Shown one piece after another: positions 9,546 through 48,849 of a stretch of DNA of 64,000 nucleotides; positions within the stretch are counted from its first letter, which is position 1; every line of letters begins with the position of its first letter. The notes under the pieces are model-generated. The model saw nothing but the letters and a program-made list of their open reading frames with translations. It did not search any database and was not told where the DNA came from. The stretch covers positions 434,001 to 498,000 of the forward strand of contig JAUCSD010000001.1 in NCBI GenBank assembly GCA_030445245.1. The letters run 5' to 3'. The position numbers and the translations under genes are program-made. The DNA is from Candidatus Saccharimonadota bacterium (GTDB lineage Bacteria; Patescibacteriota; Saccharimonadia; Saccharimonadales; Saccharimonadaceae).

Positions 9546-9629
9546 ATATGCTATGGTATCACGATATATTCTATTCATCCGCGCATTGATGAATCAAATC
9601 TCCTCAGGTTATCCCGACTGACGAACTGG

Positions 9630-9671
9630 CATGATAGAGTCGCGCTGGCTCGTCAGCGGGATTCTATCATG
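9630..9671. terminator. Orphan hairpin resembling the small-gene terminators
   Basis: Perfect 9-bp stem CATGATAGA / TCTATCATG. Its right arm context GCGGGATTCT resembles the 3' hairpin of the gene at 10248-10574, but no plus-strand gene lies before it. A second pairing, CTGACGA (9618-9624) with TCGTCAG (9650-9656), interleaves with it. There is no clear T-tract, so terminator function is uncertain; an operator for rnhB is an alternative. Confidence 0.45.
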
Positions 9672-9705
9672 TTACTACTTAGACAATCTCTCAATTGAAC
9701 ATACA

Positions 9706-9773: not shown

Positions 9774-10094
9774 GTGCCTGAACGTAAGATGAGACTGCCA
9801 AGTGACACCGTACTGGTGCGACGCCTCAGGGGAGTCGGTCACTCGTCGTATGCCATCAAGCATCTTCATCCGCGCATCATCGAAGAGCTGAGAGCCGGCG
9901 AAGGTGCCCTCACTGCAGGAGTCATCATCGCACGTATCATCAACGCGATCGAGGACTACTCGAGATACAACTATCCCCTCTCTCCACGCCAGATGAGCAT
10001 ATGGCTAGAGCTCTATCTTCGAGCTGTGATCACAGACTCGAGGATCCGGGCCCAGGCACTGCGGATACTCATCCAAAGTCATGCCCCCGAGTAG
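9774..10094 (+). CDS. Small protein of unknown function, paralogue pair member 1
   Basis: A 106-residue soluble, mostly helical protein starting at GTG 6 nt after AAGGAG. It shares with the next gene the pattern RRLR...LHP.I.EEL.AGEG.L..VII and, at the C-terminus, W...YL.A.ITD..I..QAL, so the two are clear paralogues from tandem duplication. Own promoter and hairpin terminator make it a single-gene unit. Codons are GC-richer than in the flanking genes. I recognise no family and propose no function. Confidence 0.72.
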   Translation: MPERKMRLPSDTVLVRRLRGVGHSSYAIKHLHPRIIEELRAGEGALTAGVIIARIINAIEDYSRYNYPLSPRQMSIWLELYLRAVITDSRIRAQALRILIQSHAPE

Positions 10095-10247: not shown

Positions 10248-10574
10248 GTGAATAGTCAGAAGAAATTCAAACTGCCAAACGACGCCGAGCTGGCTCGACG
10301 TCTTCGCATCGCCGACAATCGGCCAGAGATTGTCAAGAATCTTCACCCACTCATCGTCGAAGAGCTGAAGGCTGGCGAAGGCGTTCTTAGCTCGGCAGTC
10401 ATCATCTTACACCTAGCTAGCGCATTCGAGCGCTACGCGCCAGACAACACTCTTTCGATGATCCGCACCAAGAGTGAGTGGATGGATCGCTACCTCAAGG
10501 CTCTGATCACCGATCGGGAGATCCTGAGTCAAGCACTCGGACACTCTGATCAAGGTCGTCGTGCCCGCCGATAG
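10248..10574 (+). CDS. Small protein of unknown function, paralogue pair member 2
   Basis: A 108-residue paralogue of the gene at 9774. GTG start, 8 nt after AGGAG. Shared residues include LRPND-type start, RRLR, LHPLIVEELKAGEG, VII and the C-terminal YLKALITDREILSQAL. It ends in an Arg-rich tail. Like its partner it stands alone between its own promoter and a structured 3' end. Function unknown. Confidence 0.72.
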   Translation: MNSQKKFKLPNDAELARRLRIADNRPEIVKNLHPLIVEELKAGEGVLSSAVIILHLASAFERYAPDNTLSMIRTKSEWMDRYLKALITDREILSQALGHSDQGRRARR

Positions 10575-10575
10575 G

Positions 10576-10622
10576 ATGGCGAGAGGTCTCGCTTTCTTCG
10601 GCGGGATTCTCTCATCGCCATA
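10576..10622 (+). terminator. 3' hairpin of small paralogue 2
   Basis: GATGGCGA-GAG pairs with CTC-TCATCGCCAT around an inner structured loop containing GCGGGATTCT. No T-tract follows directly; the bidirectional terminator at 10626 comes next. Confidence 0.5.
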
Positions 10623-27152: not shown

Positions 27153-27569
27153 ATGCCCAGCGTTAGGGTGTACTTCCCGCGACACATTCTGCGAGGCGCG
27201 CGCAATCGGCGTGCCTTCATGACAGACATACAGACCGCAGTCGCCCTCCACATGGAGGGACTCAACTACGAAGGTCAGCACACAGACCTGATTCCGGACG
27301 ACGTCGACGTCATGCTTCGTTCATACGAAGCTGAAGACGTCATCGCCGGGGCGATGTTCCTCGTGGAGATCATGGGGTATGACTACCCGGATCGAATGGT
27401 TTCTATCGAGGTTCGTCTGAGGAAGATCGCCAGAGATATCCATGAAGTCGTGGGCGTCTTTGTCGATCCAAGCCTCGTGGACTACGAAGGCGAGGACGAT
27501 GAGGACAGGCTAGATCTCGTCTCCATCACCTTCCTTCCCTACCAGAGGGGATGCTGGACGTCCGTGTAG
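27153..27569 (+). CDS. Small protein, possible tautomerase-superfamily relative
   Basis: A 138-residue product starting MPSVRVYFPRHIL, with RRAFMTDIQTAVALHMEGL after it. A Pro directly after Met, a first beta strand, and a helix of the A-x2-I-x3-A-V type, followed by a second similar half (IEVRLRKIARDIHEVVG), recall the tautomerase superfamily, in which Pro-1 is catalytic. This is a weak, pattern-based suggestion. GAGGAGG lies 25 nt before this ATG; a seven-codon frame (ATG at 27143) stops inside the gene start and could couple translation. Own promoter and two 3' hairpins; GC-rich codons like the other small accessory genes. Confidence 0.6.
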   Translation: MPSVRVYFPRHILRGARNRRAFMTDIQTAVALHMEGLNYEGQHTDLIPDDVDVMLRSYEAEDVIAGAMFLVEIMGYDYPDRMVSIEVRLRKIARDIHEVVGVFVDPSLVDYEGEDDEDRLDLVSITFLPYQRGCWTSV

Positions 27570-35566: not shown

Positions 35567-35598
35567 TATACCTGTTACCTCAAGTGATGGAGGACGTC

Positions 35599-35919
35599 AT
35601 GGGATTCATCGGCCCCGGAGACCGCTACGCAGAGAACAGCGTCATCTTCCTCGTCGCACTTGACCGGAACGTGTCCTCGGTGAGGCAGGCGGACGACATC
35701 CGGAAGCAAATGGAGACACCGGATCCGCGCGCGCCTCGGCTCGCTCCGCTCTCGTTTGTCTTCATGGCAAACAGACCAGGAGAGACAACGGTGACCTTCT
35801 CAAGATCGCTCAGCGACCGCGAACTGAGGCACGCGCTCAGGCTCATGGCTGAAAAGCTGGTCAGACTTCACTTCTTCGATTCGATGCCCGCACTTCCCGA
35901 TCCTGTCCGCTCGAGGTAG
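35599..35919 (+). CDS. Small protein of unknown function, paralogue pair member 3
   Basis: A 106-residue protein. The ATG at 35599 is preferred over the GTG at 35584 because GGAGG lies 5 nt before it and the same geometry is seen in its paralogue downstream. Shared pattern with that gene: an N-terminal strand (VIFLVALD), a basic helix, LSFVFMANRPGE-TVTFSRSLSD-E, a second helix LMAEKLVRLH and an end -PALPDP/-RIPDP. Overall it looks like a small alpha/beta protein. Own promoter and a 3' hairpin. GC-rich, Arg/Asp-rich codons unlike the neighbours. No family recognised. Confidence 0.7.
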   Translation: MGFIGPGDRYAENSVIFLVALDRNVSSVRQADDIRKQMETPDPRAPRLAPLSFVFMANRPGETTVTFSRSLSDRELRHALRLMAEKLVRLHFFDSMPALPDPVRSR

Positions 35920-36061: not shown

Positions 36062-36093
36062 CATACGTGCAGACTCAACGAGTGGAGGATGTT

Positions 36094-36411
36094 ATGGCAT
36101 ATGTCCATGGAGGCAAGACCCAGGACGATGGTAGTGTCGCCTTCGAGATTGTACTCGATGTAGCAGTTCCCCGCGCGAAGCTGAGAGAGCTTGAAGAAGT
36201 ACTGAAGAAAGTGACTGTGCGTGGTACTGAACGACTGATGCCAAGGTCGTTCAGTATTCTACGAAACGGTCACGCCTCAGCCGTCTTCGCCGACCCCCTG
36301 AGCAACCATGACTTCAAACAGGCACTCAAAATCCTGACGGCCAGGCTTCGTATTCACGGATACGTACAAAGCACACCAAGAATCCCAGATCCCGCCCACA
36401 CGAAGAAGTGA
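36094..36411 (+). CDS. Small protein of unknown function, paralogue pair member 4
   Basis: A 105-residue paralogue of the gene at 35599. ATG chosen 5 nt after GGAGG; the GTG nine codons earlier lacks such a site. Shared features include DDGSVAFEIVLD, a helix, RSFSILRNGHASAVFADPLS and the end RIPDPAHTKK. Like its partner it is a single-gene unit in a GC-rich island between the ArsR operon and the PfkB operon. Function unknown. Confidence 0.7.
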   Translation: MAYVHGGKTQDDGSVAFEIVLDVAVPRAKLRELEEVLKKVTVRGTERLMPRSFSILRNGHASAVFADPLSNHDFKQALKILTARLRIHGYVQSTPRIPDPAHTKK

Positions 36412-44980: not shown

Positions 44981-46000
44981 CTAGTGTTGGAGTGAGCGGC
45001 CGACGTCGGCTACGAGCTCAACAAGGCGGTTACTGTAACCCCATTCGTTGTCATACCAAGCGACTACCTTGATCAAATTACCACCAACAACGTTGGTTAA
45101 TTTTAGGTCAACGATAGCGCTGTGGCTATTACCTTTGAAGTCGCTACTGACGAGCTCTTCTTCAGTTACGTCAAGGATGCCTTGGTAGAATGGCTGACCA
45201 GCAGCTTCTTTGAAGACAGTGTTAATCTCATCGATTGTTGTGTCTCGTTTGAGTACTACTGAAAAGTCACTCATACTCACAACTGGGGTTGGAACACGAA
45301 CGCTCAATCCACCGAAGATACCTTCGAGAGCTGGAAGTGCTTTAGCGGCTGCTATGCTTGCGCCAGTTGTTGTTGGAACGATGTTTTCAGCTGCGGCACG
45401 AGCTTCGCGAAGATCTTTAGCTGGAGCATCTTGCAGGCGTTGGCTTGCTGTATAGCTGTGAACAGTAGTCATGAGGGCTTTTTCGATACCGAAGTGACCT
45501 TCAAGAACTGCCATGACTGGAGTAATACAGTTAGTCGTACAGCTTGCATTACTGATGATATCGCTAGCACCTTCGATTTTGTCTTCGTTTACGCCAAGCA
45601 CGATCGTATCGACGCCGTCGCCTTTGGCTGGAGCTGAGATGACAACTTTCTTAGCACCGCCGCCATCAATGTGAGCGCGTGCCTTAGCTGCGTCAGTAAA
45701 GAAGCCAGTACTTTCAATGACAACGTCAACATTGTGATCTTTCCATGGAAGTACTGCTGGGTCGCGTTCAGCAAGTACGGCAATGTGCTTACCGTTGACG
45801 ATAATACCTGCTTCGTCATACCCAACTTCGTGTTGGTACAAACCATACGATGAGTCATGTTTAAGAAGATGCGCTAAAGTTTTTGTATCTGTTAGGTCGT
45901 TAATCGCAACGATACTCAAATCACTGCGTTCAAATGCAATCTTAAAGGCATTGCGGCCAATGCGACCAAAACCATTGATCGCGATGTTTACTTGACTCAT
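44981..46000 (-). CDS. gap: Glyceraldehyde-3-phosphate dehydrogenase
   Basis: A 339-residue type I GAPDH. NAD site INGFGRIGRNAF and INDLTD; catalytic Cys in SNASCTTNCITPV; His in HSYTASQ; VKVVAWYDNEWGYSNRLVEL at the end. It is monocistronic, with AAGGAG about 11 nt upstream and its own promoter and terminator, and belongs to lower glycolysis fed by the pentose-phosphate operon. Confidence 0.97.
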   Translation of the reverse strand: MSQVNIAINGFGRIGRNAFKIAFERSDLSIVAINDLTDTKTLAHLLKHDSSYGLYQHEVGYDEAGIIVNGKHIAVLAERDPAVLPWKDHNVDVVIESTGFFTDAAKARAHIDGGGAKKVVISAPAKGDGVDTIVLGVNEDKIEGASDIISNASCTTNCITPVMAVLEGHFGIEKALMTTVHSYTASQRLQDAPAKDLREARAAAENIVPTTTGASIAAAKALPALEGIFGGLSVRVPTPVVSMSDFSVVLKRDTTIDEINTVFKEAAGQPFYQGILDVTEEELVSSDFKGNSHSAIVDLKLTNVVGGNLIKVVAWYDNEWGYSNRLVELVADVGRSLQH

Positions 46001-46112: not shown

Positions 46113-46128
46113 GTAAAAGACGGCCGAC
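46113..46128. repeat. 3' inverted-repeat element of small-gene unit 6
   Basis: On the plus strand GTAAAAGACGGCCGAC. On the gene (minus) strand it follows the terminator hairpin and reads GTCGGCCGTCTTTTAC. Complementary to the 5' element at 46547-46562. Confidence 0.75.
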
Positions 46129-46140
46129 AAAATCGTGCCA

Positions 46141-46175
46141 GTGATAGAGCGGCGAAATCGCTACCACTCCATCAC
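46141..46175 (-). terminator. 3' hairpin of small-gene unit 6
   Basis: GTGATGGAG pairs with CTCTATCAC (one G-U); followed by ACGATTTTG and the inverted-repeat element. Confidence 0.6.
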
Positions 46176-46218
46176 CCAGATGCCAGGAATCATACTTCAA
46201 AGCGGAGGGGGCAAGAAT

Positions 46219-46524
46219 TTAGCCCTTTCCTTGTTGTTTCATATGCTCAAGGATCTTCTCGACAATCCCTTGTGCTAATGGATCCCTGAAGTGCATGAGC
46301 TGGGGGATCCTCGGCACGATCACGTGCTGAATGTGATGCTTGCGTAGTGTGGCCGTGAATACTTTTGCCACGGCGTCGTTGGTGATGAGGACATAGTACT
46401 GTCCTCGGAATGGAATTGGCGTGACGAGAATCACACACTCGACACCCCTTGAGACACCTTCCTTCGCCCACTCATCAAGTTTTTCGGGAAGTGCATTTCG
46501 CGGACTGATACGGACGATCTTCAT
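46219..46524 (-). CDS. Small protein of unknown function, inverted-repeat unit 6
   Basis: A 101-residue alpha/beta protein beginning MKIVRISPRN, with ECVILVTPIPFRGQYYVLI, then VAKVFTATLRKHHIQHVIVPRIPQ and a helical end. It is a paralogue of the next gene (shared MK-[IL]-[VI]-RI start, Y-x-V/M, VFTATLR/VFQLRR, I-x-H-x-VI). GAGGAG lies 8 nt before the ATG. The unit lies between two 16-nt inverted repeats. The basic helix plus beta strands could bind nucleic acid, but I recognise no family. Confidence 0.72.
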   Translation of the reverse strand: MKIVRISPRNALPEKLDEWAKEGVSRGVECVILVTPIPFRGQYYVLITNDAVAKVFTATLRKHHIQHVIVPRIPQLMHFRDPLAQGIVEKILEHMKQQGKG

Positions 46525-46546
46525 GCGGCCAACTCCTCATTGGTTT

Positions 46547-46562
46547 GACAGCCGTCTTTTAC
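46547..46562. repeat. 5' inverted-repeat element of small-gene unit 6
   Basis: On the minus strand GTAAAAGACGGCTGTC, located at the predicted mRNA 5' end, about 24 nt before the ATG. Pairs with the 3' element at 46113-46128 with 14 Watson-Crick pairs, one G-U and one mismatch. Confidence 0.75.
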
Positions 46563-46693
46563 ATATCAGATAAAGCCTGCGCTACTAAATTAAGCACAAG
46601 CGATATCCGAATGCCTGTATTATGTCATACACATACCGTACTCACAATATAAAAACAATCCGAAAAAATGGATTACTGTAGTCCGATGAAAGA

Positions 46694-46709
46694 GTAAAAG
46701 ACGGTCGAC
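46694..46709. repeat. 3' inverted-repeat element of small-gene unit 5
   Basis: Plus strand GTAAAAGACGGTCGAC; on the gene strand GTCGACCGTCTTTTAC after the terminator hairpin. Confidence 0.75.
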
Positions 46710-46714
46710 ACGAT

Positions 46715-46753
46715 GTCGGTGGAAGCAGCGATACACGCCGCCGCTCCACCGAC
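46715..46753 (-). terminator. 3' hairpin of small-gene unit 5
   Basis: GTCGGTGGA pairs perfectly with TCCACCGAC and an inner GCGGCG with CGCTGC (one G-U), a stem of about 15 bp; CGTCTTTTAC follows. Confidence 0.75.
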
Positions 46754-46759
46754 ACTCCC

Positions 46760-47089
46760 TCACTTAGCGGTAGGCTGTCTGTGCCGTCCGACGCTCGTTT
46801 GAGCGGTGACGAGGGCAAGCAGCTTCATGAACCTCTCCGGAGAGCGCGCATCCAGGACGCGATACCCTGCCGGAAGCTTTGTGATGACTTCGTGCCCGAT
46901 CCGCATCCGCCGCAGTTGGAAGACGAACGCGGCAGCAACGACGTCATAAGGCACCATCGCGTAGTGATAGCCGTTGTACGGCGAGATAGTAAGCAGTGAC
47001 TCGCACCGCAACCTCCCGCGACTCGCCTCCAGACGTGCTGCTATTGTTGGTAAATCAGTGCCATCGACATTGATACGAATGAGTTTCAC
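46760..47089 (-). CDS. Small protein of unknown function, inverted-repeat unit 5
   Basis: A 109-residue paralogue of the gene at 46219, beginning MKLIRINVDG. GTG start, 7 nt after AAGGAG. It keeps the strand-helix pattern: LLTISPYNGYHYAMVPYDVVAAAFVFQLRRMRIGHEVITKLP, and ends in an Arg/Lys/Pro tail. Codons are distinctly GC-rich compared with rsh and gap on either side. Own 5' and 3' structured ends. Function unknown. Confidence 0.72.
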   Translation of the reverse strand: MKLIRINVDGTDLPTIAARLEASRGRLRCESLLTISPYNGYHYAMVPYDVVAAAFVFQLRRMRIGHEVITKLPAGYRVLDARSPERFMKLLALVTAQTSVGRHRQPTAK

Positions 47090-47108
47090 GCATCCGCTCC
47101 TTAAGGCT

Positions 47109-47124
47109 GACGACCGTCTCTTAC
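47109..47124. repeat. 5' inverted-repeat element of small-gene unit 5
   Basis: Minus strand GTAAGAGACGGTCGTC, about 20 nt before the GTG. Pairs with the 3' element at 46694-46709 (14 Watson-Crick, one G-U, one mismatch). Confidence 0.75.
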
Positions 47125-47310
47125 GTCAGACGTGATGCTTTCATCTGACAGAAGGGACAAAAACACACTCTGATACTATAATTATTTCACTTATTTATTT
47201 GGTCGTAAATATTTGACACATTATATACGTAAATATGTCAATGATCGTTTTGTCGTACTTTCCATTACTCAACTTGCTATTATCCACCAGTGTTTTATAC
47301 TAGTAATACA

Positions 47311-48849
47311 ATGAACAAGCGTGAATTGCTACATCGGGCGGCCCCGCATTACAGCGAGAACCAACAGCTCGAGCTTGCTCATGCGATTGACTTTGCCACG
47401 AGCGCCCATGAAGGACAGAAACGCCGCAGTGGCGAACCCTACATTATTCACCCGCTGGCGGTCGCCGATACCCTGGTGGAGTGGGGTATGGACATCGATA
47501 CGGTGATCGCTGGTATTCTCCACGACACGGTCGAAGATACCGACGCCACCCTCGAAACGATCGAGAATTTATTCGGTCGCGACGTCGCTTTTCTCGTTGA
47601 TGGTGTTACGAAAGTATCGCAGGCTCGAGCAGGTATGCGTAACCTTGAAAGTTATCTCCCTCAGACCAAAGATAATCTGTCCAAGCTCCTGATTGCAGTG
47701 GGCCAGGATGTCCGAGTCATTATCATTAAGTTAGCGGACCGGTTGCATAACTTGTCGACCCTGCAGCATATGAACCGCGAAAAACAGCTTAAAATTGCCC
47801 GTGAGAGTCTTGAGGTTTTTGCCCCTATGGCCGACAAACTCGGTATGGGACGAGTCCGCATGCAGATCGAAGAGCTTGCGTTCTCCTACATTGATCCGAC
47901 TGAGTTTAAACGGCTCGAAAACATGATGAAGAAACGACTCGGAAAAAGCACCCGCAAGCTCGGTGCTGTTCGTCAGGACGTTGAGCGTGAACTAAAAAAA
48001 CAAAACATTGAAGCCGAAGTAAACGGCCGCGTTAAGAGCATCTACAGTTTGTACAAGAAATTGAAGAAGGTCGATGGCAATATCGATGACATCTACGATC
48101 TGATGGCACTTCGCATCATCGTTAAGGATAAGGAAGAATGCTACAAGGTGCTTGGCATTCTCCATTCGATGTACCAACCAATGATCTCACGTATCAAAGA
48201 CTACATTGGCATTCCTAAACCAAACGGCTACCAAAGCCTTCACACGACCGTTATCACACCAAGCAAACAGATCGTTGAATTCCAAATTCGTACCCGTGAT
48301 ATGCACGAGTATGCCGAACGCGGACTTGCTGCTGGCTTTCACTATCACGAACAAAAGGATACGAAGAACTACATTCGCGGACGGAGCACGGCAGCGAGCC
48401 TCCCAACACAGTTGCAATGGATTACTCAGTTGCAAGAAATCGCCGCACGCCTTGGTTCGGGTGATGATATTTCCCAAGATGAATTAAATATCGACCTATT
48501 CGGCAACCGTATCTTCGTCTACTCGCCAAAAGGTGACATCTATAACCTACCCGAAGGAGCCCTACCCCTCGACTTTGCGTTCATGGTCCATAGCGATATC
48601 GGTCGACACGCCTATAGCTTTCGGGTGAACGGCAATATCCATTCGTTTGATAAGCCACTGCAAAATGGTGACGTGGTTGAAGTTGTGACTCGTAAACTAT
48701 CTATGCCAAAACAGGCTTGGCTTGATCTCGTCAAGACGGGACATGCCCGCGAGAAACTACGCTCCCAATTGAAAAAGATGGAACTGATCGAGACGCTCAC
48801 TGGCGCCGCCAACATCATTCGACAGAAAACGCTTCGTCGAAAAAAATAA
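47311..48849 (+). CDS. RelA/SpoT-homologue (ppGpp synthetase/hydrolase), short form
   Basis: A 512-residue Rsh. HD hydrolase domain: SGEPYIIHPLAVADTLVEWG and HDTVEDTDAT (H71, D72). Synthetase domain: GRVKSIYSLYKKLKK, YDLMALRIIV, KDYIGIPKPNGYQSLHTTV. TGS domain: IFVYSPKGDIYNLPEGALPLDFAF. The protein ends about 60 residues later, lacking the ZBD and ACT domains of full-length RelA/SpoT. The residues for both activities look intact, so it should make and degrade ppGpp. Start at 47311; TATACT ends 9 nt upstream with no Shine-Dalgarno. Confidence 0.95.
   Translation: MNKRELLHRAAPHYSENQQLELAHAIDFATSAHEGQKRRSGEPYIIHPLAVADTLVEWGMDIDTVIAGILHDTVEDTDATLETIENLFGRDVAFLVDGVTKVSQARAGMRNLESYLPQTKDNLSKLLIAVGQDVRVIIIKLADRLHNLSTLQHMNREKQLKIARESLEVFAPMADKLGMGRVRMQIEELAFSYIDPTEFKRLENMMKKRLGKSTRKLGAVRQDVERELKKQNIEAEVNGRVKSIYSLYKKLKKVDGNIDDIYDLMALRIIVKDKEECYKVLGILHSMYQPMISRIKDYIGIPKPNGYQSLHTTVITPSKQIVEFQIRTRDMHEYAERGLAAGFHYHEQKDTKNYIRGRSTAASLPTQLQWITQLQEIAARLGSGDDISQDELNIDLFGNRIFVYSPKGDIYNLPEGALPLDFAFMVHSDIGRHAYSFRVNGNIHSFDKPLQNGDVVEVVTRKLSMPKQAWLDLVKTGHAREKLRSQLKKMELIETLTGAANIIRQKTLRRKK

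Follow-up and report, generated by a model that had tools for sequence, protein, structure and literature searches.

Small-gene units in a Saccharimonadota genome whose mRNAs are predicted to close into panhandles

Two orphan genes inside inverted repeats between rsh and gap

We analysed a 64,000-nt stretch of the genome of a Candidatus Saccharimonadota bacterium (the window). Between gap (44981-46000, minus strand) and, on the other side, rsh (47290-48849, plus strand), the minus strand of the spacer carries two small orphan genes, A and B, each inside its own inverted repeat (P1). In both units, the order along the RNA is a leader hairpin (P0), the P1 5' arm, a Shine-Dalgarno (SD) sequence and the small ORF, after which come a large hairpin rich in GC (P2) and the P1 3' arm (P1'). 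This bears out the order of element, gene, hairpin and element that an earlier note on this DNA had described, with the 3' arm just after P2.

Unit A, on the minus strand, has a predicted promoter (TTTACG-17-AATAAT with TG before the -10, 47181..47209), a 50-nt P0 leader hairpin that runs up to the first base of P1 (47125..47174; minimum free energy (MFE) -16.4, z -3.5 against dinucleotide shuffles), the P1 5' arm GTAAGAGACGGTCGTCA (47108..47124), a gene for 109 aa with a GTG start (46760..47089), the P2 hairpin (46713..46755; MFE -31.2, z -4.4) and, with P2 directly 5' of it, the P1 3' arm TGTCGACCGTCTTTTAC (46694..46710). Unit B, on the same strand, consists of a predicted promoter (TTGTGA-17-CATAAT, again with TG before the -10, 46619..46647), a 50-nt P0 (46563..46612; MFE -22.1, z -5.5), the P1 5' arm GTAAAAGACGGCTGTCAAA (46544..46562), a gene for 101 aa with an ATG start (46219..46524) and a P2 hairpin (46138..46184; MFE -24.0, z -2.5) directly 5' of the P1 3' arm TTTGTCGGCCGTCTTTTAC (46113..46131). 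Both promoters match the consensus at 9/12 positions only, and about 2.5 such matches are expected in the region. Upstream of rsh lies a near-perfect palindrome (TTGACAYA...TACGTA...TGTGTCAA, 47215-47250), possibly a regulatory site.

The proteins of units A and B are paralogues, as had been claimed from the sequence (33% amino acid identity, E=6e-10 in a two-sequence comparison), and their genes are indeed GC-richer (58% and 51%, respectively) than rsh (49%) and gap (47%). Searches for homologues in the genome itself, 393 genomes of the order, genome contigs, viral contigs, phages, plasmids, Pfam and PHROGs found the two proteins only each other. Two weak matches in the order (L011 and L012) were dismissed, as they run across stop codons and lie in unrelated contexts. 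The AlphaFold2 model of the unit B protein is weak and ferredoxin-like (pLDDT 67), with no significant match when compared with the PDB, and the model of the unit A protein was unusable (pLDDT 40).

We found both inverted repeats where they had been reported, 47108-47124 with 46694-46710 (17 nt, 88%) and 46544-46562 with 46113-46131 (19 nt, 89%). The 16-nt consensus GTAARAGACGGYYGWC fits all four arms with 0 mismatches, every other site in the window has at least 2 mismatches, and GTAARAGACGG is common to the four. This 11-mer core occurs in the 1.16-Mb genome at the four arm sites and at three sites inside other genes, and the reversed control gives one match. About five other inverted-repeat pairs of like quality and spacing lie in the window, so a single repeat is unremarkable. 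Of the 337 spacer ORFs scanned in 464 kb of this genome, the ORFs of units A and B alone are enclosed by at least 14/16 Watson-Crick pairs. What goes beyond chance is that one sequence is used four times and that the arms were retained in diverged copies.

Between units A and B, the 5' arms are identical at 14/17 and the 3' arms at 16/17 positions (30/34 bases kept). The two genes are 46, 52 and 33% identical at codon positions 1, 2 and 3, as expected of old coding paralogues, with the third position near random. These figures bear on the possibility that the complementarity arose by chance and was inherited through tandem duplication. The other repeats of the window and the shared descent of A and B would suit such an origin, but the arms have been kept against saturated third codon positions, and the hold-out and syntenic covariation tests given below also speak against it; we consider it highly improbable. 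The earlier note had further described a covarying pair at position 12; the change itself is real, but two sequences give it no statistical weight (262/500 shuffles).

The 16-mer arm had 3 foreign matches in 387 related genomes, compared with 2 for the reversed control. The paired-arm pattern had no match in viral contigs and five in genome contigs, about the chance rate that we expected, several of them inside other genes. A match at G000:C1:296324 was judged to be chance, being without leader structure and having its 3' arm within a hairpin loop.

In several relatives, rsh and gap are divergent neighbours. Their spacer is empty, at about 100-150 nt, in six genomes (G286, G151, G396, G397, G035 and G124), and in three other genomes it contains other small GC-rich orphans, unrelated and on the strand opposite to gap (L020, 2644-3069; L025, 934-1356; L032, 370-774 and 955-1359, the last again a tandem paralogous pair). 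Hence, the rsh-gap spacer is a hotspot of unrelated orphan genes, since it is empty in some relatives and orphan-filled in others.

This pattern of occupancy would suit a small mobile cassette, with the repeats as its terminal inverted repeats and the genes as cargo, which was one of two readings in the earlier note. The GC-richness of the genes, the sharp stop of A-B similarity at the arms and the TA at the unit edges, which would fit a TA duplication, agree with a cassette. However, the DNA gained at rsh-gap reaches past the repeats and includes the promoters, and no target duplication longer than TA was seen. Moreover, the four arms lie at one locus, further copies were absent from the genome and from 387 related ones, viral contigs had no paired copies, and the paired-repeat matches in the genome collection are unrelated.

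Predicted transcripts of units A and B

The 5' element had been taken to lie where the transcript begins. In either unit, the predicted promoter puts about 50 nt between the transcript start and the 5' arm downstream of it, and the earlier placement is therefore not quite right. The distance from the -10 to P1 is 56 nt in A and B alike, and both 50-nt leaders form one hairpin that ends at P1, though their sequences are unrelated. As for the 3' element, which had been said to hold the T-run of a terminator, the T-run does lie inside the paired 3' arm, but the big hairpin ends about 13 nt before it. A terminator scan of both units gave only weak matches, at the shuffled background, and the 3' arm is no obvious terminator.

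The minimum-energy folds of both units contain P1 and the flanking hairpins (z -4.7 and -4.6 relative to shuffled sequences), and P1 closes with a probability of about 1 in each predicted transcript. Upon in-silico removal of P1', the unpaired fraction of the SD went from 0.51 to 0.58 in A and from 0.36 to 0.34 in B, and the folding test on the two units showed no sequestration of the ribosome-binding site by P1. Hence, translational masking as in the aapA and icaR mRNAs is not supported, because P1' removal hardly alters SD accessibility. Neither the rsh-gap region nor four atp loci (see below) had an Rfam match at the gathering score.

These folds also bear on whether the units are inert mRNAs like those of type I toxin-antitoxin systems (hok/aapA type), in which the panhandle would silence a small toxin until 3' processing. 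Such small-protein mRNAs with conserved 5'-3' pairing are known, stable and inert (PMC6733600), and several of the recurring units described below code for small membrane proteins. Against this, the A and B proteins, at 109 and 101 aa and with no obvious membrane segment, do not resemble a short hydrophobic toxin peptide, the folds show no SD sequestration by P1, and no antisense RNA was identified, a consensus scan having given no plus-strand promoter match within the A and B ORFs. We regard a toxin mRNA of this type as improbable here.

Recurrence of the layout and covariation in atpD-atpC units

In about 390 related genomes, neither the P1 sequence nor the A and B proteins turned up; the layout did. 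We scanned spacers in sampled stretches of relatives for a promoter, a P1 arm, a small ORF, a P2 hairpin within 14 nt and a P1' arm, using as the null the permutation of 3' windows among genes; this permutation test took the place of a loose descriptor scan with a parallel-pairing null, which was not discriminating. At the threshold score of at least 32, the first set gave 3 spacers versus 0.28 expected (0/274 permutations), and a hold-out of 795 kb of new sequence gave 5 spacers versus 0.16 expected (0/100 permutations). Across the several thresholds tabulated for both sets, the excess over the null shrinks at looser scores, and in the hold-out at a score of at least 36 it depends on one unit. 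Several of the matches are probably chance, such as G286:C1:208030 and G141:C2:218992.

The clearest single case (G205:C1:171257, minus strand) has the same layout, with a perfect TTGACA-17-TATAAT promoter, a leader hairpin, a P1 of perfect 15 bp and P2 directly before P1'. Its P1 lies 55 nt from the -10 (56 nt in A and B) and is unrelated to theirs in sequence, and the membrane protein that it encodes is likewise unrelated to the A and B proteins. In general, P1 sequences vary widely among units, even inside one genome, and leader hairpins are strong in some recurring units and absent in others.

Two of the hold-out matches occupy orthologous positions between atpD and atpC. We collected this spacer from 30 relatives; 8 genomes, which represent 5 genera and include that of the window, carry a unit in it. 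Of the other spacers, 15 are at most 59 nt, one is 105 nt, four are long and lack a recognised P1, and two were left undecided. The window's own genome thus has a second kind of unit, a panhandle unit among its ATP synthase genes, between atpD and atpC (L195, G000:C1:198233-198897), that encodes a 191-aa membrane protein. The proteins of all eight units are small membrane proteins (90-191 aa) that have diverged from one another, and the position of the units is syntenic and their orientation the same in 8/8 genomes.

In the predicted folds, each of the 8 atp transcripts forms 12-17 P1 pairs. In the P1 alignment, for which the arms were joined without gaps and anchored by hand and in which related sequences share changes, 93.3% of cells are paired, in comparison with 72% when shuffled and 35-40% when slid (0/500). 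Double compensatory changes occur at 7/13 pairs, with up to four pair types per position (0/500 shuffles), and the covariation is 0.511 versus 0.095 (0/500). Hence, in the atp units the predicted transcript has complementary ends whose pairing is kept by covariation, where A and B alone offer n=2. For the atp units, chance as an explanation is refuted by the hold-out and covariation results.

The kind of mismatch bears on whether the pairing is in DNA or RNA. On the gene strand, the interior non-Watson-Crick pairs of the atp units, A and B are 7 G-U and 0 A-C (p about 0.008; the numbers are small, and one G-U case belongs to a unit that a G-U-tolerant scan had picked up). If the repeat acted at the DNA level, the two mismatch types should be equally frequent; hence, pairing in RNA is favoured over a DNA repeat, and we infer that the arms pair in the gene-strand RNA.

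The atp units also weigh against both DNA-level explanations. A single transposase could not serve all units, because P1 differs in sequence between units of one genome; together with the synteny and uniform orientation of the atp units and with the extent of the gained DNA at rsh-gap, this variation disfavours the mobile cassette, which we regard as distinctly unlikely. The repeats could instead be DNA inversion sites (an inverton) that flip the gene relative to an external promoter. The predicted promoters do lie outside the repeats, and the genome has a serine-resolvase match and phage-integrase matches, but none of these recombinases is near units A and B, the generic Phage_integrase matches lying far from them. 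Furthermore, the assemblies show one orientation in 8/8 atp units, the arms have mismatches of the G-U type and vary in sequence between loci, and the big hairpin is on the 3' side in every clear case. Inversion is very unlikely indeed.

Proposed sealing of mRNA ends, related RNAs and other orphan genes

We arrive at a probability of about two in three (0.66) that the units are self-contained transcription units whose mRNA closes into a panhandle with sealed ends; the function is the least certain part. This mRNA panhandle, the other reading of the earlier note, draws on the closing of P1 with a probability of about 1, the layout around unrelated genes, the compensatory changes in the atp units and the restriction of wobbles to G-U. 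Units A and B would belong to the class by layout and geometry and not by covariation of their own, because they are known in one genome only.

In the mechanism that we propose, the P1 5' arm would pair with the 3' arm over 16-19 bp and so close the panhandle. P0 would seal the 5' end against 5'-sensing nucleases, and P2 with P1' would seal the 3' end against 3' exonucleases. The sealed ends could then yield long-lived, slowly translated or processing-gated mRNAs for fast-evolving small proteins. We suggest, with lower confidence than the structure, that end protection or dependence on processing is what the sealed ends are for.

Long inverted repeats that close a transcript segment are familiar from rRNA processing stems, and P1 could similarly be a processing stem at which a cut by RNase III releases or destroys the message, as in pre-rRNA stems or the icaR mRNA. 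P1 has 12-19 bp, and processing remains a rival because the genome encodes RNase III; on the other hand, many P1 helices are at or under the usual length need of this enzyme. The structure is the same as in the panhandle with protected ends, and the outcome alone differs. We think processing of this kind rather unlikely, though a precedent exists in the 5'-3' pairing of icaR, which makes an RNase III substrate (PMC3868564). The present units differ from rRNA processing stems in that they enclose one ORF.

Only a few individual bacterial mRNAs are known to have paired ends. The hok and aapA type I toxin mRNAs have a 5'-3' long-distance interaction, a fold supported by covariation and a stable primary transcript (PMC6733600). 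Our units are alike in being small-protein mRNAs with two paired ends and a fold backed by covariation, transcript stability being a feature of hok and aapA. They are unlike them in encoding proteins of 90-191 aa from many unrelated families, in a P1 that leaves the SD uncovered, in having a separate leader hairpin and a large P2, and in that no antisense RNA was found. In the icaR mRNA of Staphylococcus aureus, pairing of the 5'-UTR with the 3'-UTR covers the SD and recruits RNase III (PMC3868564); icaR is a single gene with a long 3'-UTR, whereas the 3'-UTR of the present units is only about 70-110 nt. The large structured bacterial RNAs in Rfam share the closing stem with internal hairpins, but the region enclosed in our units is coding and has no Rfam match. 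Hence, the hok, aapA and icaR mRNAs are mechanistic relatives and not family members.

A literature search of partial coverage found no description of such a class of sealed mRNAs. More tentatively, and with the odds somewhat against it, the leader hairpin, P1, ORF and P2 may form a general RNA chassis that expresses many unrelated, fast-evolving small proteins in housekeeping spacers, with a shared factor or nuclease acting on the class, so that the members of this regulon would share an RNA shape rather than a sequence. To our knowledge, gene regulation is almost unknown in this ultra-small, host-dependent group; the syntenic, covarying units in the F-ATPase operon spacer of five genera, together with the recurrence around unrelated orphans, would make end-sealed mRNAs a feature of the whole lineage. 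Searching for the panhandle layout would also help to find overlooked small proteins regardless of their sequence.

The other tandem orphan pairs in the window are without a panhandle. Two tandem GC-rich paralogues, 42% identical, lie between rnhB and rplS (9774-10094 and 10248-10574, plus strand); both have a promoter-like sequence and a 3' hairpin of their own, but neither has a panhandle. This family has a relative in the same spacer of G286 and more members elsewhere in G286 and in G366. Upstream of the pair, a hairpin (9624-9672) looks like the 3' hairpin (10577-10620) and could be a relic of one more unit. A second pair of tandem GC-rich orphan paralogues, diverged to 30% identity (35584-35919 and 36067-36411, plus strand), has conserved -10 regions. 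Finally, a single GC-rich orphan of 138 aa (27153-27569, plus strand) has a large hairpin on its 3' side, and its 5' and 3' ends are partly complementary.
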